DNA from: an uncultured Bacteroidales bacterium
GTDB taxonomy: Bacteria > Bacteroidota > Bacteroidia > Bacteroidales > Bacteroidaceae
Reading direction: 5' to 3'
NCBI GenBank assembly: GCA_902774335.1
Contig: CACYHW010000008.1
Location: forward strand, 25,689-89,688
Length of the DNA stretch: 64,000 nucleotides
The notes beneath the pieces are model-generated. The model made no database searches. It had not been told where the DNA came from and saw only the letters and a program-made list of their open reading frames with translations. This document shows, in pieces, positions 3,135-61,699 of the stretch. Every line of letters begins with the position of its first letter. Within the stretch, counting starts at the first letter, position 1. Both the position numbers and the translations under genes were made by a program.

Positions 3135-4106
3135 ATGGAAATCAAGACTATAGGCGTTCTTACATCCGGAGGCGACGCTCCCGGAATGAACGCATGCATC
3201 AGAGCCGTAACCAGAGCCGCCATTTATCAGCACTGGAAGGTATACGGCATATACCGTGGATGGGAAGGACTTATCAATGACGAGGTCCGTGAACTGACAA
3301 CCGAGAGCGTCAGCAATACCATACAGCGAGGCGGCACCATTCTCAAGACCGCACGCAGCGAGGAGTTCCGTAAGCCCGAAGGCCGCAAAAAGGCCCATGA
3401 GACTCTTGTCAAGTACGGAATAGACGCGCTTATAGTAATAGGCGGCAACGGCTCACTTTCAGGTGCGCTGGAGCTGGCCAAGGAGTATGATTTCCCTGTC
3501 ATCGGACTGCCGGGCACCATCGACAACGACCTGTACGGCACCGACTCCACCATAGGTTATGACACTGCACTCAACACCATCGTGCAGTGCGTGGACAAGA
3601 TACGTGACACCGCCACATCTCATGACCGCATCTTCTTTGTCGAGGTTATGGGACGTGATGCCGGTTTCCTGACTCAGAACAGCGCCATTGCAGCCGGTGC
3701 CGAGGCAGCCATCATCCCCGAGGACTGCACCGACATTGATCAGCTGGCCACATTCATCGGCCGCGGCATCCGCAAGAGCAAGAACAGCAGTATTGTTCTG
3801 GTGTCCGAGAAGGACGGCGGCGCCATGCACTATGCCGACCGCGTACGCAAGGAGTATCCTCAGTACGATGTACGTGTATCAATCCTGGGTCATCTGCAGC
3901 GCGGAGGCACTCCTACCGCTTATGACCGCATCCTTTCAAGCCGTCTGGGCGTTGCTGCCATCGAGGCTCTGAACGAGGGACAGCGGAACATTATGGTGGG
4001 CATCAAGAACGATCAGATTGTGTACGTTCCTATTGCCCGCGCCATCAAGTGGGACAAACCCATTGACAAGGAGCTGATCCACGTTCTGGGAGTACTTTCA
4101 ATTTGA
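3135..4106 (+). CDS. pfkA: 6-phosphofructokinase (ATP-dependent)
   Basis: Phosphorylates fructose 6-phosphate to fructose 1,6-bisphosphate in glycolysis; cytoplasmic. The 323-residue length fits bacterial PfkA. GGDAPGMN near the N-terminus binds [12 protein letters not shown] follows, the catalytic Asp lies in TIDND, and MGRDAGFLT and LGHLQRGG complete the sugar-phosphate site. The frame extends 26 codons upstream, but those residues are non-homologous in character and precede the promoter box, so [10 protein letters not shown] is taken as the start. The stop codon TGA (4104-4106) directly joins the heptamer repeat that follows. Confidence 0.95.
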
Positions 4107-4131
4107 ATTGAGAATTGAGAATTGAGAATTG
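4106..4131. repeat. AATTGAG heptamer repeat, left arm of composite module
   Basis: Tandem AATTGAG units directly after pfkA. With the complementary arm at 4200-4231 it brackets the terminator at 4164-4199. The spacer begins ATACGCTG, as it does at 47979, and then has CCTGCGT and GCGACATAAAAAAG. Confidence 0.9.
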
Positions 4132-4163
4132 ATACGCTGTACCTGCGTTAATTACCGCGACAT

Positions 4164-4199
4164 AAAAAAGCCTTGCGAAGATTTCGCAAGGCTTTTTTT
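4164..4199. terminator. bidirectional terminator between pfkA and carB
   Basis: Hairpin GCCTTGCGAA/TTCGCAAGGC flanked by runs of A and T, so it can act for both convergent genes. It lies inside the heptamer repeat module. Confidence 0.85.
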
Positions 4200-4231
4200 A
4201 ATTCTCAATTCTCAATTCTAAATTTTCAATT
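4200..4231. repeat. AATTCTC heptamer repeat, right arm
   Basis: Inverted counterpart of the arm at 4106-4131. It reaches the TAA stop codon of carB (4231-4233 on the minus strand). Confidence 0.9.
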
Positions 4232-7200
4232 TACTTGAAGCTGTCCCAACTCTTGATAGGAATATCATCAATATCAACAGTGCAGAAAGCATTGATGAAC
4301 GAACTGGCCAGACGAGCGTTGGTAATCAGCGGAATGTTCAGGTCAATGGCTGCACGGCGGATCTTGTATCCGTTGGTGAGCTCGTGCTGGGTAAGATCCT
4401 TGGGGATGTTAACCACCATGTCAATCTGCTTGTTGTGGAGCATCTCCAGAGCCTGTGGCTGTTGTCCCTCCTCGCTGGGCCAGTATACGCGGGTATTCTT
4501 GATACCGTTCTCCTCCAGGTACTTTGAAGTACCGCCGGTAGCGTACAGGTTGAAGCCCTTTGAAACAAGCATCTTGGCGGCATCCAGCATTGCGGCTTTC
4601 TGCTTTGCGGTACCTGTTGACAGAAGGATGTTCTTCTTGGGGATGCGGTAGCCTACTGAGAGCATTGACTCCAGGATGGCGTAACGCTGGTCATCACCCA
4701 GGCAGCCTACCTCACCGGTCGAAGCCATATCGACACCGAGTACGGGGTCGGCCTTCTGCAAACGGTTGAACGAGAACTGTGAAGCCTTGATACCTACGTA
4801 GTCGATATCGAACAGGCTCTTCTCGGGTGCCTCGACAGGAATGCCAAGCATGATCTTGGTTGCTATCTCGATAAGGTTGATCTTGAGCACCTTGCTTACG
4901 AACGGGAACGAACGTGAAGCGCGCAGGTTACACTCAATTACCTTGATATCGTTCTCACGTGCCAGATACTGGATGTTGAAAGGTCCGCTGATGTGGAGTT
5001 CCTTGGCAATCTGACGGCTGATGCGCTTGATACGCTTTACAGTCTCAACATAGAGCTTCTGGGGCGGGAACTGGATGGTAGCGTCACCGGAGTGTACGCC
5101 GGCAAACTCAATGTGCTCGCTGATAGCGTAGGCAATGATCTCACCGTCCTTGGCAACGGCATCCATCTCAACCTCCTTGGCATTCTCGATAAAGCGGCTT
5201 ACTACAACCGGGTGCTCCTTTGATACCTCGGCAGCCAGCTGCAGGAAACGCTCCAGCTCCTCCTGGTTGCTGCAGACGTTCATGGCAGCACCTGAAAGAA
5301 CGTATGAGGGACGTACCAGTACGGGGAATCCAACCTTCTCGATGAACTTGCCAATCTCCTTCATAGAGGTAAGCTCGCTCCACTCAGGCTGGTCAACGCC
5401 GATGCGGTCAAGCATTGCAGAGAACTTCTCGCGGTCCTCGGCATTATCGATGTCCTTGGCGCTTGTACCCAGGATAGGCACATTCATTGCATCAAGCTTC
5501 ATGGCCAGGTTGTTAGGAATCTGTCCGCCGGTTGATACAATCACACCGTAAGGATTCTCCAGCTCTATGATATCCATGACGCGCTCAAATGAGAGCTCAT
5601 CAAAGAACAGACGGTCTGTTACATCGTAGTCGGTACTTACTGTCTCAGGGTTGCAGTTGATTACGATGTTGCGGTAGCCCTCCTTGCGGACGGTGTTCAG
5701 AGCCTGAACGCCGCACCAGTCAAACTCAACTGATGAACCGATTCGGTATGCGCCTGAGCCGATAACGATGATTGACTTCTTGTCATCAAAGAAAGGTATA
5801 TCGTGAGCGCAGCCGTTATATGTCATGTACAGGTAGTTCTCCTGAGCCTGATACTCACCGCCCAGTGTATCGATCTGCTTAACGAAAGGAACAATGCCCA
5901 GGCTCTTACGCTTGTTGCGTACAGCCAGCAGACCGGCCTGTGCGCCAAGACTCTTCTCGGCACCTATGGCACGTGAAATCTGGAAGTCTGAGAAACCAAT
6001 CTTCTTGGCCTTGCGCAGCAGATCCTCGCTCAGAGCATCTACGCCCTTAACCTTATGCAGTTCCTTTGATACATCGTGAATACCCTTCAAGCGGTTCAGG
6101 AACCACTTGTCAATCTTGGTAAGCTCCCAGATGCGGTCAACGGTGTAACCCTCGCTGAAGGCCTGGCTGATAGCGAACAGACGCTTATCGGTAGGCTCCT
6201 TGAGTGCCTTGTCCAGGTCGGCAAACTTGATGCTCTTGTTCTCAACGAATCCGTGCATGCCCTGACCGATCATACGGATACCCTTCTGGATAACCTCCTC
6301 AAAGCTGCGGCCGATAGACATAACCTCACCTACAGACTTCATTGACGAGCCGATCTCGCGGTCAACGCCGTGGAACTTGCTCAAATCCCAACGGGGAATC
6401 TTGCAGACTACATAGTCAACAGAGGGCTCAAAGAAATCGGTTGTGGTCTTGGTGATGGAGTTCTTAAGCTCGAACAGGTTGTAACCCAGACCCAGCTTGC
6501 AGGCAACGAATGCCAGAGGATAACCGGTAGCCTTTGATGCCAGGGCCGATGAGCGGCTCAGACGGGCGTTAACCTCGATGACGCGGTACTCCTCGCTCTG
6601 GGGGTCGAATGCGAACTGGATGTTGCACTCACCTACTATACCGATATGACGTGCTATGCGGATGGTCAGCTCCTCAAGCTTATGAACCTCATGATTTGTC
6701 AGAGTCTGTGTAGGAGCAACCACGATACTCTCACCGGTGTGGATACCCAGCGGGTCAAAGTTCTCCATTGAGCAGACGATGATTGAGTTACCGCTCTTGT
6801 CGTTCACGCACTCGAACTCAATCTCCTTCCAGCCCTTGAGGCTCTTCTCAACCAGGATCTGCGGTGAGAATGAGAATGACTTCTCGGCCAGTTTGTTCAG
6901 CTCCTCCTCATTGTCGCAGAAACCTGAACCCAGACCGCCCAGAGCGTATGCAGAACGGATGATAACCGGGTAACCCAGCTCACGTGCAGCTGCGCGTGCA
7001 TCGTCCATGGTCTCTACGGCGTGGCTCTTGATGGTCTGTACGCCTATCTCATCCAGACGCTTGATAAAGAGGTCGCGGTCCTCGGTGTCCATGATGGCCT
7101 TAACCTGGGTACCCAGAACCTTTACCTTATATTTATCCAGAACACCGTTCTGCTCCAGGGCGACACCGCAGTTCAGAGCGGTCTGGCCACCGAATGCGAG

Positions 7201-7458
7201 CAGGATTGCATCGGGACGCTCCTTGGCAATCACCTTCTCAACAAAGAACGGGGTTACAGGGTAGAAATAAACTCTGTCAGCTACACCCTCGCTGGTCTGT
7301 ACTGTAGCGATGTTAGGGTTAATGAGGATGGTCTCGATGTTCTCCTCCTTAAGGGCCTTAAGGGCCTGTGAGCCTGAGTAATCGAATTCGCCGGCCTCAC
7401 CTATCTTGAGTGCGCCTGATCCCAGGAGCAGCACTTTCTTGTATTTCTTCAATGCCAT
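4231..7458 (-). CDS. carB: carbamoyl-phosphate synthase large subunit
   Basis: The 1075-residue synthetase makes carbamoyl phosphate from bicarbonate, ammonia and two ATP, for pyrimidine and arginine synthesis. Two homologous ATP-grasp halves are visible, starting near residues 5 and 560 (GSGALKIGEAGEFDYSGSQ and IGSGAYRIGSSVEFDWCGVQ), followed by a C-terminal MGS-type allosteric domain (from about 935). The N-terminal half reads more like the animal CAD/CPS1 family than E. coli CarB, for example INPNIATVQTSEGVAD. It lies 12 nt downstream of carA in the same operon. The partner CarA lacks the usual glutaminase cysteine, so free ammonia may be the nitrogen donor (inference). Confidence 0.95.
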   Translation of the reverse strand: MALKKYKKVLLLGSGALKIGEAGEFDYSGSQALKALKEENIETILINPNIATVQTSEGVADRVYFYPVTPFFVEKVIAKERPDAILLAFGGQTALNCGVALEQNGVLDKYKVKVLGTQVKAIMDTEDRDLFIKRLDEIGVQTIKSHAVETMDDARAAARELGYPVIIRSAYALGGLGSGFCDNEEELNKLAEKSFSFSPQILVEKSLKGWKEIEFECVNDKSGNSIIVCSMENFDPLGIHTGESIVVAPTQTLTNHEVHKLEELTIRIARHIGIVGECNIQFAFDPQSEEYRVIEVNARLSRSSALASKATGYPLAFVACKLGLGYNLFELKNSITKTTTDFFEPSVDYVVCKIPRWDLSKFHGVDREIGSSMKSVGEVMSIGRSFEEVIQKGIRMIGQGMHGFVENKSIKFADLDKALKEPTDKRLFAISQAFSEGYTVDRIWELTKIDKWFLNRLKGIHDVSKELHKVKGVDALSEDLLRKAKKIGFSDFQISRAIGAEKSLGAQAGLLAVRNKRKSLGIVPFVKQIDTLGGEYQAQENYLYMTYNGCAHDIPFFDDKKSIIVIGSGAYRIGSSVEFDWCGVQALNTVRKEGYRNIVINCNPETVSTDYDVTDRLFFDELSFERVMDIIELENPYGVIVSTGGQIPNNLAMKLDAMNVPILGTSAKDIDNAEDREKFSAMLDRIGVDQPEWSELTSMKEIGKFIEKVGFPVLVRPSYVLSGAAMNVCSNQEELERFLQLAAEVSKEHPVVVSRFIENAKEVEMDAVAKDGEIIAYAISEHIEFAGVHSGDATIQFPPQKLYVETVKRIKRISRQIAKELHISGPFNIQYLARENDIKVIECNLRASRSFPFVSKVLKINLIEIATKIMLGIPVEAPEKSLFDIDYVGIKASQFSFNRLQKADPVLGVDMASTGEVGCLGDDQRYAILESMLSVGYRIPKKNILLSTGTAKQKAAMLDAAKMLVSKGFNLYATGGTSKYLEENGIKNTRVYWPSEEGQQPQALEMLHNKQIDMVVNIPKDLTQHELTNGYKIRRAAIDLNIPLITNARLASSFINAFCTVDIDDIPIKSWDSFK

Positions 7459-7470
7459 AGTAGCGGGGTG

Positions 7471-8532
7471 TTAGAGTTTTGAAACAAAATCATCGTAAAT
7501 AAACTTGGCGTCAGTGTTCACCTGATCGCTCTCTGAGTGGAACATCACGCCTACCCAGGGCTTGCGTGTGTTGTAGATGCCCTCAACAGAACCGTCGTTC
7601 AGGTTCTTGAGGTATACCTTCCACTGACCAACCACTGAATCCTCGCGGATAGCGTAGTTGTGGTTCTGTGTGGTTATGTAGCAGCGCTCGGTACCTGCCA
7701 GTATTACCGGCTGGTTCTGACTGTGGTGGCCGAACTTGAGCTTGTATGTATCCATACCGCCGGCAAGACCCAGCAGCAGGCATCCCATACCGATACCCAG
7801 GATAGGAGTATCGTTCTTGGCCATGAATTTCTGGAGCTTGGTAACAACCTCACTGCAGTAGCTGGGGTTACCCGGACCGTCCGATATTACCAGACCGTCC
7901 ATCTCCATCTTGCTGTAGTCGTAGTTCCAGGGAACGCGTACCACCTCAAGATCCTCGTTGATGAGGCAGCGTACCACTCCGGCCTTAACGCCGCAGTCTA
8001 CCAGTACCACCTTCTTTGAAGCACCCTCGTTATATGTAACAGGTTTCTCGACCGATACCTCCGGAAGCATGTTGGTATATGCATACTCGGCAGGCTTGGT
8101 CTTACCGTCAAACACGATCTTGGCGGTCATGCTGCCATGGTTGCGGATGTGCTTGGTAAGCTCACGGGTATCAACACCCATCACACCAACAATCTTTTCG
8201 CGCTTCATCCACTCTGCGAGTGACTCCTTAGCGTTCCAGTGGCTGTAAAAGTCGCTCACCTCGCTTACTATCAGTGCACGTGCCTGAGCCTGTGAGCTCT
8301 CGGCGTTAGTGGGCAGTCCATACTCATCGGGAGTCATGGGCTGGATTCCGTAGTTACCAATGACCGGATAGGTCATTACAATGAGCTGTCCGCGTGAAGC
8401 AGGCTCGGTAAGAAGCTCAGGATAACCTGCCATTGCGGTGTTGAATACCAACTCACCGCTTACAGGATGTTCATAGCCGAATGATTCGCCCTTGAAACAG
8501 GTACCGTCGGCCAAAATCAATGATACTGTCAT
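7471..8532 (-). CDS. carA: carbamoyl-phosphate synthase small subunit, glutaminase Cys replaced
   Basis: 353-residue small subunit with the CPSase N-terminal domain (LADGTCFKGESFGY onward) and a class I glutamine amidotransferase domain. The amidotransferase elbow, normally GICLGHQ, reads GIGMGCL, so the nucleophile Cys is Gly248. TYKLKFGH and the final FHSES (the His and Glu positions of the triad) are present. Animal CPS1 has a comparable Cys-to-Ser change and uses ammonia; the same is inferred here. The Cys two residues later (Cys250) is not at the elbow position. First gene of carAB; a promoter box and a leader hairpin lie upstream. Confidence 0.9.
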   Translation of the reverse strand: MTVSLILADGTCFKGESFGYEHPVSGELVFNTAMAGYPELLTEPASRGQLIVMTYPVIGNYGIQPMTPDEYGLPTNAESSQAQARALIVSEVSDFYSHWNAKESLAEWMKREKIVGVMGVDTRELTKHIRNHGSMTAKIVFDGKTKPAEYAYTNMLPEVSVEKPVTYNEGASKKVVLVDCGVKAGVVRCLINEDLEVVRVPWNYDYSKMEMDGLVISDGPGNPSYCSEVVTKLQKFMAKNDTPILGIGMGCLLLGLAGGMDTYKLKFGHHSQNQPVILAGTERCYITTQNHNYAIREDSVVGQWKVYLKNLNDGSVEGIYNTRKPWVGVMFHSESDQVNTDAKFIYDDFVSKL

Positions 8533-8579
8533 TCTCTCTCTTTATTGTGTTAAACTCTTTTCAATCACAGAGTAAAAAA

Positions 8580-8610
8580 AAGGAGAAACTGTAAACAACA
8601 ATTCCTCCTT
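8580..8610 (-). terminator. hairpin plus U-tract in the carA leader (attenuator candidate)
   Basis: Read on the minus strand, the stem AAGGAGGAA/TTTCTCCTT (one G-T wobble) is followed by a run of T at 8574-8581. It sits between the proposed carA promoter (8702-8709) and the carA start (8532), so it could end transcription early. It could instead end read-through from the GH43 gene, whose stop is at 8795. Confidence 0.55.
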
Positions 8611-8697
8611 CTAAAAAATATTTCTCTTGGAAACATTATCCCCACCGGTCTGCTTATGCTTTGGCGAGCAACTTATATTTCCTCTTTTTCTTAACAT
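8611..8697 (-). CDS. possible 28-residue leader peptide of carAB
   Basis: Short frame starting 4 nt after the -7 box and ending in TAG immediately before the attenuator-like stem. It begins MLRKRGNI and is rich in Arg and Lys. Its position suits translation-coupled attenuation, possibly sensing arginine, an end product of carbamoyl phosphate. A frame of this length can arise by chance, and no ribosome binding site is possible in such a short leader. Confidence 0.3.
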   Translation of the reverse strand: MLRKRGNISCSPKHKQTGGDNVSKRNIF

Positions 8698-8701
8698 GCT
8701 G

Positions 8702-8709
8702 CAAAGGTA
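8702..8709 (-). promoter_or_regulatory. -7 box (TACCTTTG) for carAB
   Basis: Matches TAnnTTTG on the minus strand. A TTG lies 19 nt upstream at the position of the -33 element. It implies an mRNA leader of about 165 nt before carA. Confidence 0.6.
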
Positions 8710-8794
8710 CAGCTTTTCCTTCAAACCTCAACACACAAATGAATAAGTTTTCAACAAAAGAAGAATAAATAAACATAATAAGCCCTCTATCCTG

Positions 8795-10141
8795 TTACAG
8801 AGGTTTGTAGTCAAATGAGGCCAGGGTTGCATTGCCGTCCAGAAGATAGGCAGGACGGAGGGCAAAGAATCCTTTGTAGTAGTTGTGGTGATAGGACTGG
8901 ACGGTAGCGTTCTGATAATATACGGTCCAGTCGGCTCCGTCGGGGCTTATCCACACAGATACGTTGTTGCGGTCGTTCAGTATGCGAACGTAGAAATCGG
9001 GACCCTTGCTCTCCTGGGCGCCGATGTTTGCGTCCTCATTATAGAAAAGGTAGAGTCCGGCACGTCCGCCCTCACCTATTTTGAAATGGGCCGATATCTG
9101 ATAAGAGGCGTCGATGGCGGTGGTGGTCATCAGAGTGCCGCCGTCAAAGCCGGGCTCCCACTTGGCCCACATGATGGGGTTCTCGTAGTGACGCAGGTAA
9201 TCGTAGTTCTTCTGCAGACCGCCTCTTTTCCACTTGGCGCCCTTTTTCTGTACCAGTACAGGCCAGCCGTCCTTGGTCCACTCCACACTCTCGATAATGG
9301 TGCTTCGGCCCAGAGTATGAAATCCGTTGCGGTATGCGTGATATACAATGTACCAGTTGCCCTGGGGATCGTCAATCAGAGTGCCGTGACCCTTGGACCA
9401 CCACTGCTCGTCGGCTGAATAGGTGTGTACCAGCGGGTTGTAGGGGCTGTTCTCCCAGGGACCGGTTACGGACTTGCTGCGGGCTACCACGCACATATGG
9501 CTGGTGGGAGGACCTGCGGTTCCACCTTCGGCGCTTACCAGATAGTAGTAGTCACCACGCTTAAGAATCTTGGGTGACTCCAGCCACATGCCCTCGGTCT
9601 CCCACTCCTCGGGATACTGCCACGGGTCATAAACCTTCTTGTTCGGACCGGTTATTGAAAGGCCGTCAGCCGACAGAGGAGCTACATGACCGTCATTGGT
9701 ATAAAGGTAACGGTTGCCGTCGGCATCAATGGCATGACCGGGATCGATTCCGCTTACCATCAGTTTGACGGGCTCGCTCCACGGGCCTTCCATCCTATCG
9801 GCCGTAACCACAAAGTTCTCACCGCTGCTGGTGGGATAATAGATGTAGTACTTGCCGTCAACCTTACACAGGTCCGGAGCGTATATGGAATAGTCCTGAT
9901 CCTGAACGGCGCGTGCTATAGGCTCCCAGGTCAACAGATCTGTGGAGTGCCATATGAGCAGACCGGGATAGTAGGTGAAATTGGAATGAGTCATGTAATA
10001 ATCATTGCCGTCACGCAGGATTGTGGGGTCCGGATAATCTCCCGGGAATATCACCACTTTCAGAGCATCTTTCTGCCTGCACCCTGACATAAGCAGAGAA
10101 ACAGCGGCAACTGCCATTGCGACATAGGATTGGACCTTCAT
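8795..10141 (-). CDS. GH43 family glycosidase, lipoprotein
   Basis: Five-bladed propeller glycosidase of family 43, usually an arabinofuranosidase or beta-xylosidase acting on arabinoxylan. From the start used here, a lipobox LLMSGC (Cys21) predicts a membrane-anchored lipoprotein. The catalytic base is in GDYPDP (Asp38), the pKa-tuning Asp133 in SGIDPGHAID and the acid Glu188 in WLESPKIL. A C-terminal beta-sandwich of about 150 residues follows. An ATG 4 codons upstream (10153) is the alternative start; the shorter one gives a standard signal peptide. It fits with GH67, the esterases and xylose isomerase as xylan-degrading functions. Confidence 0.88.
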   Translation of the reverse strand: MKVQSYVAMAVAAVSLLMSGCRQKDALKVVIFPGDYPDPTILRDGNDYYMTHSNFTYYPGLLIWHSTDLLTWEPIARAVQDQDYSIYAPDLCKVDGKYYIYYPTSSGENFVVTADRMEGPWSEPVKLMVSGIDPGHAIDADGNRYLYTNDGHVAPLSADGLSITGPNKKVYDPWQYPEEWETEGMWLESPKILKRGDYYYLVSAEGGTAGPPTSHMCVVARSKSVTGPWENSPYNPLVHTYSADEQWWSKGHGTLIDDPQGNWYIVYHAYRNGFHTLGRSTIIESVEWTKDGWPVLVQKKGAKWKRGGLQKNYDYLRHYENPIMWAKWEPGFDGGTLMTTTAIDASYQISAHFKIGEGGRAGLYLFYNEDANIGAQESKGPDFYVRILNDRNNVSVWISPDGADWTVYYQNATVQSYHHNYYKGFFALRPAYLLDGNATLASFDYKPL

Positions 10142-10169
10142 ATTTAGAGACATTAAATGTTAGTAAATG

Positions 10170-10177
10170 CAAAAATA
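10170..10177 (-). promoter_or_regulatory. -7 box (TATTTTTG) for the GH43 gene
   Basis: Minus-strand TAnnTTTG match, 28 nt before the ATG at 10141. Confidence 0.5.
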
Positions 10178-10208
10178 ATAAGAATATGCCTCGGTTTGTC
10201 CCATATGC

Positions 10209-10245
10209 AAAAAAAAGACGGACTGACCATCAAGATCAGTCCGTC
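10209..10245 (-). terminator. terminator after the small outer-membrane protein gene
   Basis: Perfect 10-bp stem GACGGACTGA/TCAGTCCGTC with an 8-T tail on the minus strand, just past the stop at 10268. Confidence 0.9.
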
Positions 10246-10267
10246 CTGTATGATTGTTATTCCTTAA

Positions 10268-10708
10268 TCAGAAAGCATAGCGGATACCTAATCCGGGATA
10301 GATTCCGTCAAGGAGCTTTACGCCGTCGTTGATAGAAACGACGTTGGGACGTACATCCAATGAAAGCTGAAGAGGTACACTGCCAAAAGTATACTCAATA
10401 CCAACCTGACCACAAACACCTATTGAGGTGAAGCCGTCACCAATGTATACGTTGGCACCGGGGCCTGCATATACATTCCATGTTCCGGCAGTCCACTGGG
10501 GAGAAGCGATAACAAAGTCGTAAACACCGCTGATACCAACAGTGCCGCCCCACCAACCGAGATCTGCCTCAAGGAAGTTAGAACCAAGGCCGTGCTGGTA
10601 AGAAATCTCACCACCATTTGCAAAACGGGCACCGATTGCACGAGGCTGAGCTACTGCAGCAGCTGAAATACCCAAGACAAGCGAAAGAACAACTAAAAGC
10701 TTTTTCAT
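10268..10708 (-). CDS. small outer-membrane beta-barrel-like protein
   Basis: 146-residue secreted protein of unknown function. The signal peptide ends ISAAAVAQ. The mature part alternates polar and hydrophobic residues, is rich in Gly and aromatics and ends in Phe (GLGIRYAF), as outer-membrane barrel strands do, so a small barrel is inferred. It is monocistronic, with its own promoter and a strong terminator. No specific role can be assigned. Confidence 0.75.
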   Translation of the reverse strand: MKKLLVVLSLVLGISAAAVAQPRAIGARFANGGEISYQHGLGSNFLEADLGWWGGTVGISGVYDFVIASPQWTAGTWNVYAGPGANVYIGDGFTSIGVCGQVGIEYTFGSVPLQLSLDVRPNVVSINDGVKLLDGIYPGLGIRYAF

Positions 10709-10733
10709 ATTTGTATTTGTTAAGATTGATACG

Positions 10734-10741
10734 CAAAAATA
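10734..10741 (-). promoter_or_regulatory. -7 box (TATTTTTG) for the small outer-membrane protein
   Basis: Minus-strand TAnnTTTG match, 25 nt before the ATG at 10708. Confidence 0.55.
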
Positions 10742-10865
10742 TGATAAAATAAATATAAAAACAAATATCGGGGAATAATCTCACCCATAAAACAAAAATT
10801 TTAGCATCAACTGTTATGTGGGTATCATTTTTGGGTATAATCCGATTTGTTTTGCGGAAAAAGAG

Positions 10866-10873
10866 TACCTTTG
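10866..10873 (+). promoter_or_regulatory. -7 box (TACCTTTG) for tRNA-Thr
   Basis: TAnnTTTG match 19 nt before the mature tRNA 5' end. Confidence 0.55.
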
Positions 10874-10890
10874 CCGCCGGTTTAAGAATC

Positions 10891-10965
<75 letters not shown>

Positions 10966-10966
10966 C

Positions 10967-11001
10967 AAAAAAAATAGCGCCCGTTAGGACGCTATTTTTT
11001 T
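10967..11001. terminator. bidirectional terminator between tRNA-Thr and GH67
   Basis: Stem AATAGCG/CGCTATT flanked by A and T runs. It ends tRNA transcription and can serve the convergent GH67 gene. Confidence 0.85.
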
Positions 11002-11074
11002 GAACCGAAGCGGAACGCGGGGTCCCTACCATTACACCTTATCAGAAGGAATAGCCTAAGGAGTAATTCCTCTG

Positions 11075-13093
11075 TTATTGCAGTGTATAATCGGGGAGTT
11101 TATCAAGATCGGGAGTCTCATAATTGGATATTCGCAGGCGATAACGGCGCAGTTCATCGAGCGTATGCTGAGGCTGTGTGCAGTCATCGGGAATAGGCAT
11201 ACCCGAGAATGTCTGGAAGTAGAGCATCAGGGCATCACGCCACCAGATGGCATCCTTGGCCTGACGCACCAGCTTGTCATGAACCTGACCGTAACGGTAC
11301 GGATCAACGTATTTCTCTACGCTCTCCCATGTGCCGATAAAGCCGCGTGCCTCCTGTATTCCCTCCTCAAACGTGTAACATAGCTCATCCCACAGGGTAC
11401 GTCCACTCTTCATCTTATAGTCCCAAGGCAGATGATGGAACCAAAGGATCAGGTTATCGGGACATGTCTCTACGTTGTTATAGATCGATTTGAGAGGCTC
11501 ATTATACTGAGACACATTATTGCTGCCGGTTGTGGTACGGTCAAAACCTATTCCGTCTGCTGCAGCCTTATGATAGTATGCAGGCTCCCAGTCGGGACGT
11601 GACGAACGGTCCCAAGGTCCGGGGCCATAATGACCTGCTCCGGAAAAACAGTGGTGCAGTCCCATTGGCATCTCATACTTGACGCAAGCCTCACGCGATG
11701 CCAGAAGCATATTGGCTACAGGCTCCACAAACTTCTTGTCGGTTGTGAAGGTCTGTTTTATCCACTCATCAACAATCTGCTGCGAACTCAGGTCCGGATT
11801 CCAGGCCATACGGCCAAATGCGTACCAGTTGGCCTGCGCCATGTGATGTCCGCACCAGTTTATGCTGTCACCTATGTTGGTAACACCGGCAATGGCGCTG
11901 TATTTGGTATTGCCATGAACCTTACCCAGAGTGATGGCGGCAACGGTGCTGCCCTCACCCTTCTGATATGTATCGCTATCCAGGCACTCCTTCCACATGG
12001 GGTGCAGATAGACCATATGATTACTGTGGCCCAGATACTCCTGGGTAATCTGCATCTCGGCCATCACGTTGGTGTGCTCCAACTGTCCGAACAGCGGGCT
12101 GAAAGGCTCACGGGGCTGGAAATCGATAGGTCCGTTCTTGATCTGTATGATCACGTTGTCACGGAACTGTCCGTCCAGAGGCATGAACTCCTCGACAGCC
12201 TGATTGGCGCGGTCGGGCGATTCGGCGGCATACACGAATGCTCTCCACATCACGATTCCACCGTAGGGCTTCAGGGCATCGGCAATCATATTGGCACCGT
12301 CGGCATGTGTACGTCCGTAGTCCTGCGGACCGGACTGACCCTCGGAGTTGGCCTTTACCAGGAATCCTCCAAAATCAGGGATTATGCTGTAAATCTCGGC
12401 AACCTTATCGTTCCACCACTTGATCACATCCTTATCCAGAGGATCGCTGGTCTTGAGACCTGCCAGATGCTTGGGAGCGGCAAAGTTGAGTGACAGGTAC
12501 ACCTTTATTCCATACGGGCGGAAAATATCGGCCAGAACCTTGACCTTTTCCAGATACTCACGTGTGAGCATGCAGGGATCGGCGTTCACGTTATTCAGAA
12601 CGGTACCGTTTATGCCGATGGATGCGTTGGCGCGGGCATACTCCTCGTACTCGGGACGTATCTTACCGGGCAGCTCGTTCCATTTCCAGAGTGACTGGCC
12701 GGCATATCCGCGCTCTACGGTGCCGTTGGGATTATCCCAGTGATTGAGCACGCGGTACTTGAATGCGGGTACCTCGACGATATCCTTATCCACCTTTATA
12801 TTGCAATCGCGAAGACGCTTAAGGTGATATGTGCCGTACATCAGGCCCACCTCGGTGTTGGCATAGATTACGGCATCGCCATCGGCGTTGTTGCTGATGC
12901 GGAATCCCTCATCGCCCAACTCCTTGTCATACGTCTTGAGCAGCTCCTTGTTGGCTGCAGTTACCGGAGCGGTGATATCGCCCAACCACAAATCATGTCC
13001 GTTCCTGTTCTCCGGCCTTGTATTACCGCAGGACTGCATTCCCAGAGCCATTGCAGCCAGGGAAACTCCAAAAATCAAATTCCTTATTCTCAT
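11075..13093 (-). CDS. GH67 alpha-glucuronidase, lipoprotein
   Basis: Removes 4-O-methylglucuronic acid side chains from xylan fragments. The 672-residue protein matches family 67 through NHWDNPNGTVERGYAG, the acid motif NSEGQSGP, NGPIDFQPREP (catalytic Asp) and the following QITQEYLGH region (catalytic Glu). MRIRN is chosen as start because it gives a signal peptide with lipobox at Cys22 (GMQSCG) and leaves 4 nt after the YigZ gene; the frame upstream has only a TTG. The tight spacing to the YigZ gene suggests co-transcription. Confidence 0.92.
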   Translation of the reverse strand: MRIRNLIFGVSLAAMALGMQSCGNTRPENRNGHDLWLGDITAPVTAANKELLKTYDKELGDEGFRISNNADGDAVIYANTEVGLMYGTYHLKRLRDCNIKVDKDIVEVPAFKYRVLNHWDNPNGTVERGYAGQSLWKWNELPGKIRPEYEEYARANASIGINGTVLNNVNADPCMLTREYLEKVKVLADIFRPYGIKVYLSLNFAAPKHLAGLKTSDPLDKDVIKWWNDKVAEIYSIIPDFGGFLVKANSEGQSGPQDYGRTHADGANMIADALKPYGGIVMWRAFVYAAESPDRANQAVEEFMPLDGQFRDNVIIQIKNGPIDFQPREPFSPLFGQLEHTNVMAEMQITQEYLGHSNHMVYLHPMWKECLDSDTYQKGEGSTVAAITLGKVHGNTKYSAIAGVTNIGDSINWCGHHMAQANWYAFGRMAWNPDLSSQQIVDEWIKQTFTTDKKFVEPVANMLLASREACVKYEMPMGLHHCFSGAGHYGPGPWDRSSRPDWEPAYYHKAAADGIGFDRTTTGSNNVSQYNEPLKSIYNNVETCPDNLILWFHHLPWDYKMKSGRTLWDELCYTFEEGIQEARGFIGTWESVEKYVDPYRYGQVHDKLVRQAKDAIWWRDALMLYFQTFSGMPIPDDCTQPQHTLDELRRYRLRISNYETPDLDKLPDYTLQ

Positions 13094-13097
13094 ATAG

Positions 13098-13115
13098 TTA
13101 TAAATTTTCAATTAT
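13098..13115. repeat. degenerate AATTTTC repeat remnant at the yigZ stop
   Basis: On the minus strand it reads ATTATAATTGAAAATTTATA and encodes the last residues IENL and stop of the YigZ protein. It resembles the heptamer arms elsewhere in the window but has about one and a half units. Confidence 0.4.
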
Positions 13116-13754
13116 AATCTCCGGATCCGCCTGAGTAGCCCCAATCCCGCTAAGTTTCCGCTCCAGCTCATCGGCCACCGAAAGCTTAGCCCTGAAAGTC
13201 ATTCTGCAGTCAAAAGTGCGTGCAGACTGTTTGCAGTTGAACGCGCCCCAATCCTGAGTACCCATCTGTACGTCCAGATCCTTGGCCGCCTTCATGACCA
13301 CATTCATCATATTATAGGTAAACAGGACGGTAACGTCGCGCTCCACATAGGCGGTCACGACCTGGGCCTTCTCTATAACCTGCGCGGCACCCAGTCTGTA
13401 TGCCTCGGTCAGGCCCGATGTGCCCAGCTTCACTCCGCCAAAGTAACGTACCACAGCTATCAGCACGTCGCTCAGGCCGGCGCTGTTGATCTGTCCAAGG
13501 ATAGGCTTGCCGGCAGTTCCTGAGGGCTCGCCGTTGTCATTGGCGCGCCAATCGGCCCTTTCGGCACCCAGTATATAGGCGTAGCAGATATGACGTGCGT
13601 CATAATACTCTTTCTGGAGGGCGGCTATTCTCTCCTTAACCTGATCGGCATCAGTAACATGCCAGATAAAGGAGATAAAGCGGCTGCGCTGCTCCACAAA
13701 CTGTGACTGCGCCTCCCCTTTTACCGTAAGATATGTGTCGGTTCTGCCCTCCAT
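13098..13754 (-). CDS. YigZ / IMPACT family protein
   Basis: 218-residue member of the UPF0029 (IMPACT/YigZ) family. The N-terminal domain has the family pattern SRFISFIWHV, DARHICYAYI, DNGEPSGTAGKPIL and VVRYFGGVKLG. The C-terminal ferredoxin-like domain follows. Eukaryotic IMPACT acts in translation control; the bacterial role is unclear. The final residues IENL and the stop lie in a remnant of the AATTGAR repeat. Promoter box at 13767-13774. Confidence 0.88.
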   Translation of the reverse strand: MEGRTDTYLTVKGEAQSQFVEQRSRFISFIWHVTDADQVKERIAALQKEYYDARHICYAYILGAERADWRANDNGEPSGTAGKPILGQINSAGLSDVLIAVVRYFGGVKLGTSGLTEAYRLGAAQVIEKAQVVTAYVERDVTVLFTYNMMNVVMKAAKDLDVQMGTQDWGAFNCKQSARTFDCRMTFRAKLSVADELERKLSGIGATQADPEIIIENL

Positions 13755-13766
13755 AATTCAGAGACC

Positions 13767-13774
13767 CAAAGATA
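13767..13774 (-). promoter_or_regulatory. -7 box (TATCTTTG) for yigZ
   Basis: Minus-strand TAnnTTTG match, 12 nt before the start codon, so the 5' leader would be very short. Confidence 0.5.
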
Positions 13775-13818
13775 TAGTTTTTTTCGGTCCCCTCCCCAAC
13801 GCCGGCGTCCGATTTGAC

Positions 13819-13872
13819 AAAATGCACTGCCATAATGCATTTTATGTGGCAAGAATTGCCTTTATACCACAT
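13819..13872. promoter_or_regulatory. two nested inverted repeats before the 13915 promoter
   Basis: AAAATGCA (13819-13826) pairs with TGCATTTT (13836-13843). ATGTGG (13844-13849) pairs with CCACAT (13867-13872). They lie just upstream of the -7 box at 13880 and could be operators. No regulator is known. Confidence 0.3.
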
Positions 13873-13879
13873 TTTTTAC

Positions 13880-13887
13880 TACGTTTG
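13880..13887 (+). promoter_or_regulatory. -7 box (TACGTTTG) for the Fib_succ_major lipoprotein
   Basis: TAnnTTTG match 27 nt before the ATG at 13915; it excludes the longer upstream frame. Confidence 0.55.
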
Positions 13888-13914
13888 CACAACCTTAAAA
13901 CTATTTTTTATTGT

Positions 13915-15216: not shown

Positions 15217-15226
15217 TCAGCTGACA

Positions 15227-15294
15227 GGTGACAAAGGGGACGGTTCTGTTTGGCTCGCCAAGTCGAGCCAAACAGAACCGTCCCTTTTGTCACC
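15227..15294. repeat. REP-like 31-bp palindrome
   Basis: Arms 15227-15257 and 15264-15294 are inverted copies with one G-T wobble and a CCAAGT loop. The core contains GGGGACGGTTCTGTTTGG. It sits between convergent genes where no other terminator is seen. The sequence resembles REP elements mobilised by Y1 (RAYT) transposases in other bacteria (inference); no such transposase is in the window. Confidence 0.8.
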
Positions 15295-15296
15295 TT

Positions 15297-16127: not shown

Positions 16128-16131
16128 GCTA

Positions 16132-16139
16132 CAAATGTA
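16132..16139 (-). promoter_or_regulatory. -7 box (TACATTTG) for the DUF5131 gene
   Basis: Minus-strand match only 4 nt before the ATG. Confidence 0.5.
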
Positions 16140-16141
16140 GC

Positions 16142-16174
16142 AAATTGAGAATTGAGAATTGAAAATTGAGAATT
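16142..16174. repeat. AATTGAG heptamer repeat in a divergent promoter region
   Basis: Four units with one AATTGAA variant, lying between the two divergent -7 boxes. Unlike the other copies it is not next to a stop codon. Confidence 0.85.
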
Positions 16175-16182
16175 AAAAAGCG

Positions 16183-16190
16183 TAATTTTG
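16183..16190 (+). promoter_or_regulatory. -7 box (TAATTTTG) for the fRMsr gene
   Basis: TAnnTTTG match 6 nt before ATG 16197, implying a leaderless mRNA. Confidence 0.55.
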
Positions 16191-16196
16191 CGGCAT

Positions 16197-16664: not shown

Positions 16665-16672
16665 AACACGTT

Positions 16673-17026
16673 ATGGATATAGAACTGTTCCGCGAATACT
16701 GCCTCAGCCTGCCGCTGGTAACAGAGGATATGCCGTTTGATGATACGGTTGTGGTATTCCGTCTCAAAGGCAAGATATTTGCCTGCATTACGCTCGACAA
16801 GCCCGATATAGTGGTCCTGAAATGTGACCCTGACCGCGCATTGGAACTGCGCGATCATTACGCCGCAATAGAAGGAGCTTTCCACTGGAACAAGAAATAC
16901 TGGAACCAGATACGTCTGGACGCCGATGTGGACCGTCCCCTCATAGAGGAACTTACCCGCCACGCCTACAACGAGGTCAACGCCAAACTCCCTAAGAAAG
17001 ACAGAGTCTTTCCAATTGAGAATTGA
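16673..17026 (+). CDS. MmcQ/YjbR family protein
   Basis: 117-residue protein of the MmcQ/YjbR (DUF419) family, often described as DNA-binding-like with a CyaY-type fold. LSLPLVTEDMPF, KGKIFACI, HWNKKYWNQIRLD are typical. The final residues IEN and the stop are encoded by the AATTGAG repeat (CCA ATT GAG AAT TGA), so the C-terminus was set by the repeat. Second gene after fRMsr. Confidence 0.88.
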   Translation: MDIELFREYCLSLPLVTEDMPFDDTVVVFRLKGKIFACITLDKPDIVVLKCDPDRALELRDHYAAIEGAFHWNKKYWNQIRLDADVDRPLIEELTRHAYNEVNAKLPKKDRVFPIEN

Positions 17027-17046
17027 GAATTGAGAATTGAGAATTA
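17014..17046. repeat. AATTGAG heptamer repeat, left arm
   Basis: More than four units. It encodes the end and stop codon of the MmcQ/YjbR gene. A direct repeat of GCACCTGCGTAAA (17051 and 17066) follows before the terminator. Confidence 0.9.
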
Positions 17047-17090
17047 ACAAGCACCTGCGTAAAAAGCACCTGCGTAAAGCCCTCGACATT

Positions 17091-17123
17091 AAAAATGGCC
17101 CGGAAATCTTCCGAGCCATTTTT
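17091..17123. terminator. bidirectional terminator inside the repeat module
   Basis: Stem ATGGCCCGGAA/TTCCGAGCCAT (one mismatch) flanked by A and T runs, between convergent genes. Confidence 0.85.
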
Positions 17124-17125
17124 AT

Positions 17126-17158
17126 AATTTTCAATTTTCAATTCTCAATTCTCAATTA
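17126..17158. repeat. AATTTTC/AATTCTC heptamer repeat, right arm
   Basis: Inverted arm reaching the TAA stop of the DUF1015 gene (17156-17158). Confidence 0.9.
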
Positions 17159-19323: not shown

Positions 19324-19340
19324 ATCAATATCGAATTATT

Positions 19341-19380
19341 AATTCTCAATTTTCAATTCTCAATTCTCAATTTTCAATTA
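19341..19380. repeat. AATTCTC/AATTTTC heptamer repeat between serC and serA
   Basis: Five and a half units with no terminator. The far end supplies the TAA stop of serC (19378-19380). Being inside an operon, it is transcribed. Confidence 0.9.
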
Positions 19381-20442: not shown

Positions 20443-20480
20443 AACAGAGTATATGTATTAAAGTTTTTTGATTCGTGGCG

Positions 20481-46726: not shown

Positions 46727-47974
46727 ATGAGTGTAAAATTCAAATATAAGCTCCTGATATATCTTGTAGCGGTACTGCTTGCGGTTCCGCAGATGCTGCA
46801 CGCGCAGTGGTTCGGGAGCAAATCGGAAAGGATAAACACTCTGCGTATGATTGTGGCAGGTGATTGGGAACGCATGCCTGTGGTCAATATGGAGGCCGGT
46901 GAGTCCATTGAGTTCTCCTTTGACGAGATGTCGCACCGCTATCACCGCTTTACCTACCACATACAGCACTACGATGCCCGCTGGCAACCATCGGACCTGT
47001 TGGAATCGGACTATCTGGACGGCTTTAACGGCGAGACCATCGACAACTGGCGCAACTCGTTCAACACCACTTTCGACTATACCCATTACAGCCTGACAAT
47101 CCCCAACAACCAGGTGAGCCTCAAACTGTCGGGCAACTACCGCATGTCCATACGTGAGGACGGCGTGGAGGTGGCCTACTTCAAGTTCTGCCTGAGCGAG
47201 GGTTTAAACTGCCTACAGGCTACCCTGAGCGGCAATACCGACATTGATACGCACGATTCGCACCAGCAGCTCAACCTGGCCGTAAACTACGCAGGGCTCT
47301 CCATCAGGGACTACACCAAGGAGCTCTACACAGTAGTGATGCAGAACGGACGCACCGACAACGCTGTTCTCAACCCCACTCCCACATACGATGCCGGAAA
47401 CCGTCTCACATACGAGCACTGCAGGGATCTGATATTCCCCGCCGGAAACGATTTCCGCCGTTTTGAGGTTGTGGACATGTATTACTACTATCTCAATGTG
47501 GACCGTATCAGTTACCACGATCCATACTATCACGCCAACCTGTCAAAGGACACCCGCCGTCACGCCTATAAGTTTGACTACGACCACAACGGACGTTATC
47601 TGATACGTGCCGACGAGTCCAACGACAATGACATCGAGGCCGATTACCTGTTCGTACATTTTGACCTTGCCGCCGATCCTTTGAACAACGGGAAGCTCTA
47701 CATATCGGGCCATTTCAACGGCGGAAACCTGGATTCCAGGAATGAGATGGAGTACAACGCAGGCGAAAAATCATATCAGGCCACCATTCTCCTCAAGCAG
47801 GGTGCTTATGATTACCAGTACCTTTGGGTTCCCGACGGACATAAAGCCGGGCGCACTGAACTTATAGAGGGTGATTGGTACGAGGCCAAGAACGAGTATC
47901 AAATCCTGCTTTACTACCGCCCGCGCGGCTCACGCTATGACCGTCTGATCTCTCAATTGACAATTGAGAATTGA
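46727..47974 (+). CDS. DUF5103 (T9SS plug-type) secreted protein
   Basis: 415 residues with a signal peptide ending MLHAQ. It matches the DUF5103 family, described in Flavobacterium as the Plug protein that closes the SprA channel of the type IX secretion system. RINTLRMIVAGDWERMPV, YHIQHYDARWQPSDLLESDY and YDYQYLWVPDG are characteristic. The last residues IEN and the stop are encoded by the heptamer repeat. No other T9SS gene is in the window. Confidence 0.85.
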   Translation: MSVKFKYKLLIYLVAVLLAVPQMLHAQWFGSKSERINTLRMIVAGDWERMPVVNMEAGESIEFSFDEMSHRYHRFTYHIQHYDARWQPSDLLESDYLDGFNGETIDNWRNSFNTTFDYTHYSLTIPNNQVSLKLSGNYRMSIREDGVEVAYFKFCLSEGLNCLQATLSGNTDIDTHDSHQQLNLAVNYAGLSIRDYTKELYTVVMQNGRTDNAVLNPTPTYDAGNRLTYEHCRDLIFPAGNDFRRFEVVDMYYYYLNVDRISYHDPYYHANLSKDTRRHAYKFDYDHNGRYLIRADESNDNDIEADYLFVHFDLAADPLNNGKLYISGHFNGGNLDSRNEMEYNAGEKSYQATILLKQGAYDYQYLWVPDGHKAGRTELIEGDWYEAKNEYQILLYYRPRGSRYDRLISQLTIEN

Positions 47975-47980
47975 GAATTA
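47955..47980. repeat. AATTGAG heptamer repeat, left arm
   Basis: It encodes the C-terminus of the DUF5103 protein, then continues into ATACGCTGAGCTTGCGT and GTGACATAAAAAAG, closely matching the spacer at 4132-4169. Confidence 0.9.
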
Positions 47981-48012
47981 ATACGCTGAGCTTGCGTATG
48001 TTCCGTGACATA

Positions 48013-48042
48013 AAAAAGACGATCCTGTGGACCGTCTTTTTA
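48013..48042. terminator. bidirectional terminator inside the repeat module
   Basis: Stem GACGATCC/GGACCGTC (one mismatch) flanked by A and T runs. Confidence 0.8.
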
Positions 48043-48075
48043 AATTCTCAATTCTCAATTTTCAATTCTCAATTT
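48043..48075. repeat. AATTCTC heptamer repeat, right arm
   Basis: Inverted arm. It contains the TGA stop and the last Asn codon of rarA. Confidence 0.9.
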
Positions 48076-60785: not shown

Positions 60786-60786
60786 T

Positions 60787-61581
60787 ATGGTTATACTCAT
60801 TACCGGCATAACATCGGGATTCGGCGAGGCTATGGCCCGCCGTCTGTCGGCCGACGGTCATAAGGTTTACGGAACGCACCGCAAGGAGTGTACCCAAATA
60901 CCCGGAGTTACCTATCTCAAGGCCGATGTCCGCGACAGCCAATCCGTCGATGAAACCGTAAAAAAGGTCCTTGACGCCGAGGGCCGCATAGACGTATTCA
61001 TAAACAATGCCGGAATGGGTGTTGCAGGACCGCTGGAGTTCACCTCAATCGAGGATGCACAGAACCAGATGGATGTCAACTTTACCGGAATGATACGGTT
61101 CCTGAACCGCATTGTCCCCGTGATGAGACAGCAGCGCAGCGGTAAGATAATCTGCTTCAGCTCCATAGGCGGTCTGATGGGACTGCCCTATCAGGGTATG
61201 TACTCAGCCAGCAAGTTTGCCATAGAGGGATACTGCGAGGCACTGCGTCTGGAGTTGCATCAGTTCGGGATACATGTCACCGTTATCAATCCGGGAGATT
61301 TTTATACCGGCTTTACCGCAGCCCGAACCAAGAACCTGCCCGATGAGGCTGCCGCCGCCTACCCCGGCTACAGCAAGTCCATGCAGGGAATCGAGAAGGA
61401 TGAACGGACCGGTCTGCAACCGGATTATCTGGCTCGCCGCATAAGCCGCCTTGTGCGCAAGCGCCGCCCAGCCAACCGCTACATCATCGCTACGACTGTG
61501 CAGAAGGCTTCAGTCCTGCTCAAAGCCATACTTCCGGCCAAGTGGTACGACAGAATCCTTTCCGCCTACTACAATCTTTGA
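60787..61581 (+). CDS. short-chain dehydrogenase/reductase family protein
   Basis: 264-residue NAD(P)-dependent oxidoreductase. Cofactor motif TGITSGFGEAM, structural NNAGMGVAGPLE, catalytic Ser in CFSSIGGL and YSASK (Tyr-x3-Lys). The C-terminus is amphipathic and may touch the membrane. Its substrate is unknown. The TGA stop opens into the AATTGAAAATT unit of the following repeat. Confidence 0.9.
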   Translation: MVILITGITSGFGEAMARRLSADGHKVYGTHRKECTQIPGVTYLKADVRDSQSVDETVKKVLDAEGRIDVFINNAGMGVAGPLEFTSIEDAQNQMDVNFTGMIRFLNRIVPVMRQQRSGKIICFSSIGGLMGLPYQGMYSASKFAIEGYCEALRLELHQFGIHVTVINPGDFYTGFTAARTKNLPDEAAAAYPGYSKSMQGIEKDERTGLQPDYLARRISRLVRKRRPANRYIIATTVQKASVLLKAILPAKWYDRILSAYYNL

Positions 61582-61591
61582 ATTGAAAATT
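61581..61591. repeat. AATTGAAAATT repeat unit
   Basis: Single degenerate heptamer arm at the SDR stop codon, before the hairpin element. Confidence 0.6.
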
Positions 61592-61594
61592 CTT

Positions 61595-61661
61595 GGAGCA
61601 GCGAGAGGAGAGAAAGTTTACTTTCTATCCCGAGTCGCGACAAGAATCATGGAACGAAGTG
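61595..61661. repeat. small hairpin element GGAGCAGCGAGAG...CCGAGTCGCGAC...AACGAAG
   Basis: The core is AGAAAGT-TT-ACTTTCT between GGAGCAGCGAGAG and CCGAGTCGCGAC, followed by AACGAAG. The same ordered motifs, with a different hairpin core, occur at 62410-62463 inside the third esterase gene. Confidence 0.5.
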
Positions 61662-61667
61662 ACATAA

Positions 61668-61699
61668 TTGAGAATTGAAAATTGAGAATTGAGAATTAT
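61668..61699. repeat. AATTGAG heptamer repeat
   Basis: Four and a half units in the leader of the third esterase gene. Confidence 0.9.

Follow-up and report, generated by a model that had tools for sequence, protein, structure and literature searches.

Here, we describe arrays of the heptamer AATTGAR at gene ends in a 64,000-nucleotide stretch of DNA (hereafter the window) from an uncultured Bacteroidales bacterium of the Bacteroidaceae (GenBank assembly GCA_902774335.1, contig CACYHW010000008.1, forward-strand positions 25,689 to 89,688). These arrays, or arms, are mostly three to five units long, usually start at the edge of an open reading frame (ORF) and run outward into intergenic space. 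A full copy consists of an arm, a core, a hairpin and an inverted arm and measures about 80-170 bp. The arms are anchored at stop codons, have an outward polarity, form inward-facing pairs and are present at some and absent from other orthologous junctions. We tentatively propose, with slightly less than even confidence, that they are parts of short cassettes at gene ends, which together form a family of the heptamer-repeat kind.

The window contains 34 matches to AATTGAGAATTGAG (up to two mismatches) as compared to a mean of 0.53 and a maximum of 3 in 100 shuffles, and genome-wide the doublet pattern has 320 matches (172 + 148, up to one mismatch) as compared to none for the reversed pattern, which confirms that the heptamer arrays noted in an initial annotation of the window are real. 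A separate period-7 scan of the window recovered the same arrays, and nine AATTGAR arrays are present (starting at 4106, 4204, 16143, 17014, 17130, 19345, 47955, 48047 and 61666). The statistics on units and placement given below come from an 854-kb sample (36%) of the 2.35-Mb genome, including the window, which was picked because of its arrays; genes were called with our own simple hexamer model, and 51 arrays were found, 50 of them with genes on both sides. Period 7 dominates this sample, with 34 of the 35 exact period-7 runs consisting of AATTGAG, AATTGAA or AATTTAG. For the other periods, 21 runs were counted for period 4, four each for periods 5 and 12, two each for periods 6 and 8 and none for periods 9-11, and no unit of periods 4-6 or 8-12 was seen more than four times. 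Four units is the preferred size (29 of 51 arrays), as for the heptamers described by Rehm et al. (2015), while 4 arrays have two, 5 have three, 9 have five and 4 have six to eight units. Among 190 inner units, variation is at most 1.1% at positions 1-4 and 6, 10% at position 5 and 26% at position 7. AATTGAG, AATTGAA and AATTTAG make up 179 of them; none of the three contains GG, and AATTGAR units lack the G tracts able to form a quadruplex. When 42 units of one junction were compared between seven genomes with a search pattern that itself required positions 2-4 and nearly always position 1, positions 5 and 6 were invariant and position 7 had changed 16 times. The tandem arrays are mostly intergenic, but C14 13648 is located within a gene, C3 123704 is located 52 bases into a called ORF and 16 arrays overlap a stop codon.

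In 32 of 50 arrays, the 5' edge is located at most 2 bases from an ORF end or inside an ORF, whereas only 5.0 anchored arrays are expected upon random placement in the same gaps (standard deviation 1.3; maximum of 11 in 10,000 trials). Without the nine arrays of the window, 25 of 41 are anchored. In these counts, C3 123704 was scored as anchored despite its position within the called ORF, and C1 120519 and 61666 were scored as misses though both are separated from the gene end by the dispersed element M2, described below. Fifteen of the 50 arrays start at -1 to +2 of a stop codon and in 16 the stop lies 5-19 bases into the array. Of the 36 arrays whose 5' side points to the end of a gene, 32 touch that gene; of the 14 whose 5' side points to a gene start, 8 are located 3-25 bases away, antisense and upstream of the start codon, and 6 are farther off. 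Overall, the 5' edge is the edge nearer to an ORF in 41 of 50 arrays, with nine exceptions. Convergent junctions are enriched for arrays, as they account for 12 of the 35 junctions with arrays (22 tandem, 1 divergent) and for 95 of all 685 junctions (497 tandem, 93 divergent; odds ratio 3.6, p=0.0014); the odds ratio for divergent junctions is 0.18 (p=0.07). All 15 neighbouring pairs within 200 bp in the bacterium's own genome face inward, and when the contigs of many phyla considered further below are added, inward pairs outnumber outward pairs by 47 to 1. The initial annotation had described a dispersed element of 3' gene ends and expected its copies to be enriched at stop codons and convergent gene ends. 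Dispersal and both enrichments were borne out by these data; the restriction to 3' ends was not, since arrays also occur antisense upstream of starts.

Fifteen pairs in the sample enclose an interior. Together with loci of congeners, 29 paired elements could be compared, and in 18 of these a core, CCTGCGT...GACAT, directly precedes the hairpin site. A hairpin follows 17 of the 18 cores, in most cases between an A-tract and a T-tract, in line with the GC-rich stem and T run of an intrinsic terminator. Over 14 loci (four orthologues of one junction were dropped and L293, which does not fold, was kept), mean identity is 74% for the core, 44% for the first ten stem bases and 34% for random words, and 13 distinct stem cores are present. 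Given the difference in identity between core and stem, the hairpin looks like a slot, in which the shape is kept and the sequence mostly changed. The interiors of L191 (at the DUF5103 gene of congener G022) and L266 (at the YjbR-DUF1015 junction of G023) are 88% identical over 76 bases, stem included, as expected if a whole cassette had been copied. The other interior matches above 90% are orthologues of the same junction, common parts of M2 or the second dispersed element M3, or core stretches of 31-43 bases, and no whole copies at different loci are closer than L191 and L266 among the 29 paired elements. The three convergent junctions in the window with the same composite layout and shared spacer blocks proved to be as originally described, and their composites fold with z values of -8.7 to -13.7 against shuffles; a low fold energy is expected here, as inverted arms must fold in this way. 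As L138 and L047 show, the two arms within an intergenic region can consist of different heptamers (for example GTCAGGA + AATTGAG versus AGGGAAT), with period 7 kept.

Comparison of orthologous loci, as suggested in the initial annotation, revealed filled, empty and half-filled junctions within the genus. The YjbR-DUF1015 junction was read in the bacterium's own genome (G000) and 20 congeners (21 in total), and both genes are present in 18. Arms are found on both sides in six of these (G000, G005, G015, G008, G023 and G026), on one side in G022 and on neither side in 11, eight of which have a gap of 36-42 bp with a short hairpin; of the other armless junctions, those of G016 and G013 carry another inverted repeat and that of G004 a core-like block with a hairpin. 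YjbR ends with array-encoded residues in the six two-armed copies, IEN in four and IDN in two, in contrast to, for example, DRVESL or DRVSPV in array-free copies, which shows that the stop codon of YjbR has been taken over by the array. At the serC junction, at least two heptamer units are found in 7 of 20 readable genomes (in G029 away from the stop), and the number ranges from five in G000 over about one in G005 and G016 to none in others. The DUF5103 gene ends with IEN at an array in 6 of 30 loci read (decayed in G016), and in the other loci with MEQ, IEQ or different residues, some with other inverted repeats. In L192 (G015) and L193 (G033), an 11-base tandem repeat, AGGCTCGGTYY, takes the place of the heptamers at the end of the DUF5103 gene and adjoins the stop. 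At C1 24366, which was found in a comparison of five own array junctions with two congener contigs (16 listed comparisons), the gene ends are 133 bp apart with arms in the bacterium's own genome, and the aligned ends in G011 and G008 are 38 and 29 bp apart and hold no cassette. Orthologous arms have three or four units.

A different situation is found at C14 13648, where an antisense array forms an open frame inside a TonB-receptor-like gene (family read from the protein). Among 13 genomes with this gene, eight have a clear array and in G007 and G008 it is decayed; G002 has no array and a stretch of equal length, and G006 has no array and is one residue longer. In G022 (L347), M3 lies within the heptamer stretch of this gene, with the frame kept and about 15 residues added.

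We propose that copies of the cassette arrive at tight gene junctions, where an AATTGAG arm could replace a lost stop codon, because three successive units offer a TGA in each reading frame. The core hairpin with its A- and T-tracts may end transcription from both sides. With a stop supplied and a hairpin acting in both directions, arrival would be cheap and might even set crowded convergent genes apart, and cassettes would be kept where gene ends are tight. The arms then serve as a docking ground for the palindromic elements M2 and M3. Mobility as a unit, transcription termination and the process that generates the arms are the parts of this proposal that we infer.

Several observations weigh against the proposed gene-end cassettes. 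Neither a target duplication nor an enzyme was found; the duplication was sought by eye at pairs and at filled and empty sites, where AATT at both ends could mask a short one. The core, as searched, is absent from 11 of the 29 pairs, our pairing rule leaves 20 of 50 arrays unpaired, and hairpins differ even between filled orthologous sites (G023). The left and right arms of pairs do not match unit by unit when compared by eye, and fold-back copying, for which such a match was sought, was rejected as their source. A terminator scan of positions 3500-20500 gave 16 sites versus 15.0 in shuffles and hence no excess, and flagged one (17101) of the two cassettes covered. In the contigs of many phyla, the 3' edge touches an ORF in 30 of 136 arrays, versus 61 for the 5' edge. 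In addition, the overlap with stop codons is partly automatic: as TGA occurs in all frames of the AATTGAG units, any ORF that runs into a sense array terminates there. Lastly, the array in the TonB-receptor-like gene did not originate as a simple insertion, because the stretch has the same length in the array-free G002, which argues against a pure insertion model.

The arrays might instead be ordinary heptanucleotide simple repeats, which arise by polymerase slippage anywhere and are left by selection at harmless spots, chiefly behind stop codons. In most genomes, heptanucleotides are reported to outnumber all other classes of long simple repeats (Mrazek 2007, cited in the available parts of PMC4679880 and PMC4692102), and both the graded unit numbers at the serC junction and the change between three and four units in orthologous arms fit such a process. 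However, a single unit family accounts for all but one of the 35 exact period-7 runs, and slippage predicts neither the 15-to-0 bias for inward pairs, nor the peak at four units, nor variation that falls mainly on positions 5 and 7. We therefore regard simple slippage as unlikely and consider it more probable that arms are locally copied or converted from existing ones, with a whole cassette arriving occasionally.

Equally unlikely, in our opinion, is a miniature mobile element with terminal inverted repeats built from heptamers and moved in trans by a putative transposase. Its inverted ends, dispersed copies and filled and empty sites would fit, as would the resemblance of L191 to L266, and the 15 inward pairs have the terminal inverted repeats of miniature inverted-repeat transposable elements, with an imperfect match between left and right. 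On the other hand, L191 and L266 are the closest such case among the 29 paired elements, no target duplication was seen by eye and no array is located near those PF01797 genes whose surroundings were examined. The latter family was considered for an origin through RAYT proteins, which we rejected: 23 of 37 genomes have a PF01797 match, and no array was present in 8 loci or 8 wider neighbourhoods, overlapping sets that form part of all PF01797 matches. A RAYT gene flanked by the repeat, as known for repetitive extragenic palindromic (REP) sequences and bacterial interspersed mosaic elements (BIMEs), was not seen in the neighbourhoods examined. The single PF01797 match of G000 has parts of a CAATTGGGG...CCCCAATTG palindrome at distances of about 100 and 400 bp and no array within 5 kb. 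At L225 (G000:C19:24500-29500), CAATTGGGGCCTGACCCCAATTG palindromes surround the one Y1-transposase match of this genome, and at least one of them seems to lie inside an ORF resembling a sugar-phosphate nucleotidyltransferase.

It is still less probable that the units are binding sites for a protein acting on DNA or RNA, with outward seven-base sites marking gene borders, for example in RNA decay or insulation. This would account for the near-invariant AATT and A6, the polarity, the preferred count of four and the constancy of positions 5 and 6 as compared to position 7 in the 42 units from seven genomes. Such sites would not be essential, as exact three-unit arrays are absent from 18 of 36 congeners. 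That the arrays are footprints of a telomerase-like reverse transcriptase adding heptamers to broken ends seems hardly conceivable: a DRT10 enzyme copies an RNA template into 9-nt tandem repeats (available parts of PMC12632851) and the outward polarity fits addition at two ends, but PF00078 (RVT_1), sought in 37 genomes, was not found in G000 (87% complete) or in the array-rich G005, G016, G010 and G026, which speaks against such an enzyme, and of the seven genomes with RVT_1 matches, three have no exact three-unit array and four have 2 to 9 matches to the three-unit word.

The layout of the proposed cassettes is in part already known. The heptamers GGGAATC of Xanthomonas and GGGGA(C/T)T of Nostoc prefer four units and overlap stop codons, and convergent inverted pairs number 70 and 75 in two Xanthomonas genomes and are few in Nostoc (Rehm et al. 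2015, PMC4692102). According to the available parts of that paper, they share with the AATTGAR arrays a seven-base unit, a mostly intergenic location, arrays of four units, convergent inverted pairs, a position on the coding strand immediately after ORFs, where stop codons are overlapped, or on the non-coding strand immediately before them, and under-representation in divergent gaps. The anchoring at gene ends, suspected in the initial annotation to be new in kind, thus has a precedent in Xanthomonas. In contrast to these heptamers, AATTGAR has no G tract and its units carry TGA, and a core with hairpin and docking elements, as in the AATTGAR system, were not met in the available parts of Rehm et al. 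(2015). These authors tie the four units to G-quadruplexes, a link that cannot be general, as AATTGAR lacks GG. Conversely, GGGAATC makes no stop in any frame and yet shows the same polarity, which weakens stop supply as the reason for polarity and suggests that stop-making is probably a by-product.

TAACTGA heptamers have been described in Beggiatoaceae, Cyanobacteria and some Bacteroidetes, mostly before start codons (MacGregor 2015, PMC4679880). As far as the accessible text of that study goes, they are likewise intergenic, provide stops in all three forward frames, overlap some stop codons and can be absent from near relatives. They differ in lying mostly just upstream of starts, with one indirect repeat in the main genome, whereas AATTGAR is found mostly at stops and often in inverted pairs. 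REP sequences, BIMEs and REPINs, which are associated with RAYT (PMC2817692 and PMC3116915, seen in part), are also extragenic palindromic repeats with mosaic layouts, and the genus studied here also has other inverted repeats at array junctions, a REP/BIME-like trait; the AATTGAR arms differ in being tandem heptamers and in their absence from the RAYT neighbourhoods examined. REP sequences that act as targets of insertion sequences (PMC1525189, in the part available) resemble the arrays as a dispersed repeat serving as landing ground, in our case for M2 and M3. The target here is a tandem heptamer and the guests, at 46-74 bp, are too short for genes. Literature searches gave no paper on AATTGAG arrays among the matches listed, and matches to the text of the unit look like unrelated sequence. 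As far as searched, and with the papers above available in part, the AATTGAR unit, the shared core before the hairpin slot and the docking of M2 and M3 in arrays are new.

Among 36 congeners, 18 contain the exact three-unit word, with at most 41 matches as compared to 46 in the bacterium's own genome. Elsewhere in the order, it is present in 1 of 24 genomes, and a set of 395 genomes from the phylum included 6 with the word, namely the own genome and five with one match each. The reversed control word (GAGTTAA)3, itself a heptamer array, is found in four other genomes of the phylum. A scan of named genomes gave at least 116 stretches across many phyla, with unit counts that are biased because the contigs were selected for an exact three-unit word. 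These contigs contain 187 arrays of at least three units, of which 136 (in 85 of the 116 contigs listed) were used; the other 51 were left out because they were not flanked by genes on both sides or lay in a gap of at least 400. Bacteroidota were told from other phyla by record titles. Pairs are 15 inward, 1 outward and 7 same-strand outside Bacteroidota and 17 inward, none outward and 14 same-strand within. The 5' edge is nearer to an ORF in 40 of 55 arrays outside and 63 of 81 arrays within Bacteroidota, or, with one array per contig listed, in 26 of 36 (p=0.011) and 39 of 49 (p=4e-5). Of 269 exact period-7 runs in the listed contigs, 137 have the AATTGAR unit and the rest are other heptamers; among the matches listed, periods 4, 5, 6, 8, 9 and 10 gave 38, 7, 2, 8, 2 and 13 runs. 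It is doubtful, though conceivable, that heptamer arms at ORF edges form one cross-phylum class, with a preference for four units, a constant outward polarity and a free unit sequence, made by a dedicated process rather than slippage and serving as landing grounds for small palindromic elements, and with quadruplexes not being the reason for the four units.

The arrays are a docking ground for M2 and M3, both of which also occur elsewhere. M2 is a 74-bp palindrome with a variable central stem, copies of which were seen in G020, G005, G022 and G026. It was matched in 19 of 37 genomes, in some cases with 100% identity between species; the phage and plasmid collections searched gave no match. With one heptamer-like word as the flank criterion, 24 of 35 distinct M2 sites in 30 loci fetched were flanked (22 on reading, as L288 and L289 are chance matches), and the left flanks mostly read (G/C)AATT. 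M3 (46 bp) is present in 17 of 37 genomes, and 13 of its 32 distinct sites have a heptamer-like word (12 on reading, with L311 a chance match), the 12 in one orientation. Many other M3 sites lie between TGACGCAAA-type arms.

The features of the window are listed below. Eight of the nine arms initially reported at stop codons (those of pfkA, carB, YjbR, DUF1015, serC, DUF5103, rarA and the SDR gene) could be placed by coordinates, the one at yigZ is doubtful, and the array at 16143 had been missed. The stops of YjbR (17024-17026) and of the DUF5103 gene (47972-47974) lie within arrays, in agreement with the claim that the repeat supplies the last residues of both proteins. Domain matches fit the named gene families, with serC named from a class-V aminotransferase match and rarA from MgsA_C/AAA domains. 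The three best protein hits, at 85-93% identity, belong to RUG14495 (L085), an uncultured Bacteroidales whose RUG label denotes a rumen genome. An RNA family search of the window found nothing but a tRNA (Thr according to ARAGORN). A different inverted repeat, GGGACGGTTCTG...CAGAACCGTCCC, is located at 15237-15284 in the convergent junction 15216/15297, and repeats resembling this type fill the YjbR-DUF1015 junction in G016, G022 and G013.

Table 1. Cassette parts and heptamer arrays in the window (window coordinates).
Position	Strand	Feature
4106..4130	+	Left arm (three units + AATT), overlapping the pfkA stop TGA by its first A
4131..4163	+	Core TACGCTGTACCTGCGT ... CCGCGACAT
4164..4198	.	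A-tract, hairpin and T-tract; terminator-like in either direction, as judged from the fold
4200..4231	-	Right arm, AATTGAR read inward from the carB stop (4231)
13098..13113	-	Doubtful remnant at the UPF0029/yigZ stop, consisting of one to two decayed units
16143..16174	+	Array between divergent genes, upstream of a GAF-domain gene and away from any stop
17014..17045	+	Left arm, four units + AATT; encodes the final IEN and stop of the YjbR gene
17046..17089	+	Core, CCTGCGT twice, then CTCGACAT
17090..17124	.	Terminator-like hairpin (YjbR-DUF1015)
17126..17157	-	Right arm at the DUF1015 stop (17156)
19341..19379	-	Solo array between the serC stop (19378) and the following gene start; some congeners lack it or have a shorter one
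47955..47979	+	Left arm; encodes C-terminal residues and stop of the type IX secretion system (T9SS) plug (DUF5103) gene
47980..48012	+	Core TACGCTGAGCTTGCGTA ... CCGTGACAT
48013..48041	.	Terminator-like hairpin (DUF5103-rarA)
48043..48074	-	Right arm at the rarA stop (48069)
61581..61591	+	First part of the array at the SDR stop (61579-61581)
61592..61665	+	M2, palindromic dispersed 74-bp element, splitting the SDR array
61666..61697	+	Remainder of the SDR array

Taken together, an AT-rich unit in Bacteroidales repeats the architecture known from Xanthomonas, and the same measure finds this layout around the unit in the listed contigs of other phyla. With this, quadruplex formation falls as a general reason for the four units, and a scattered curiosity becomes one question, namely what makes heptamer arms at gene borders. 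The filled, empty and half-filled junctions within one genus make the origin of the arms testable. The arrays also show that repeats can take over the stop codon of a gene and host other elements.

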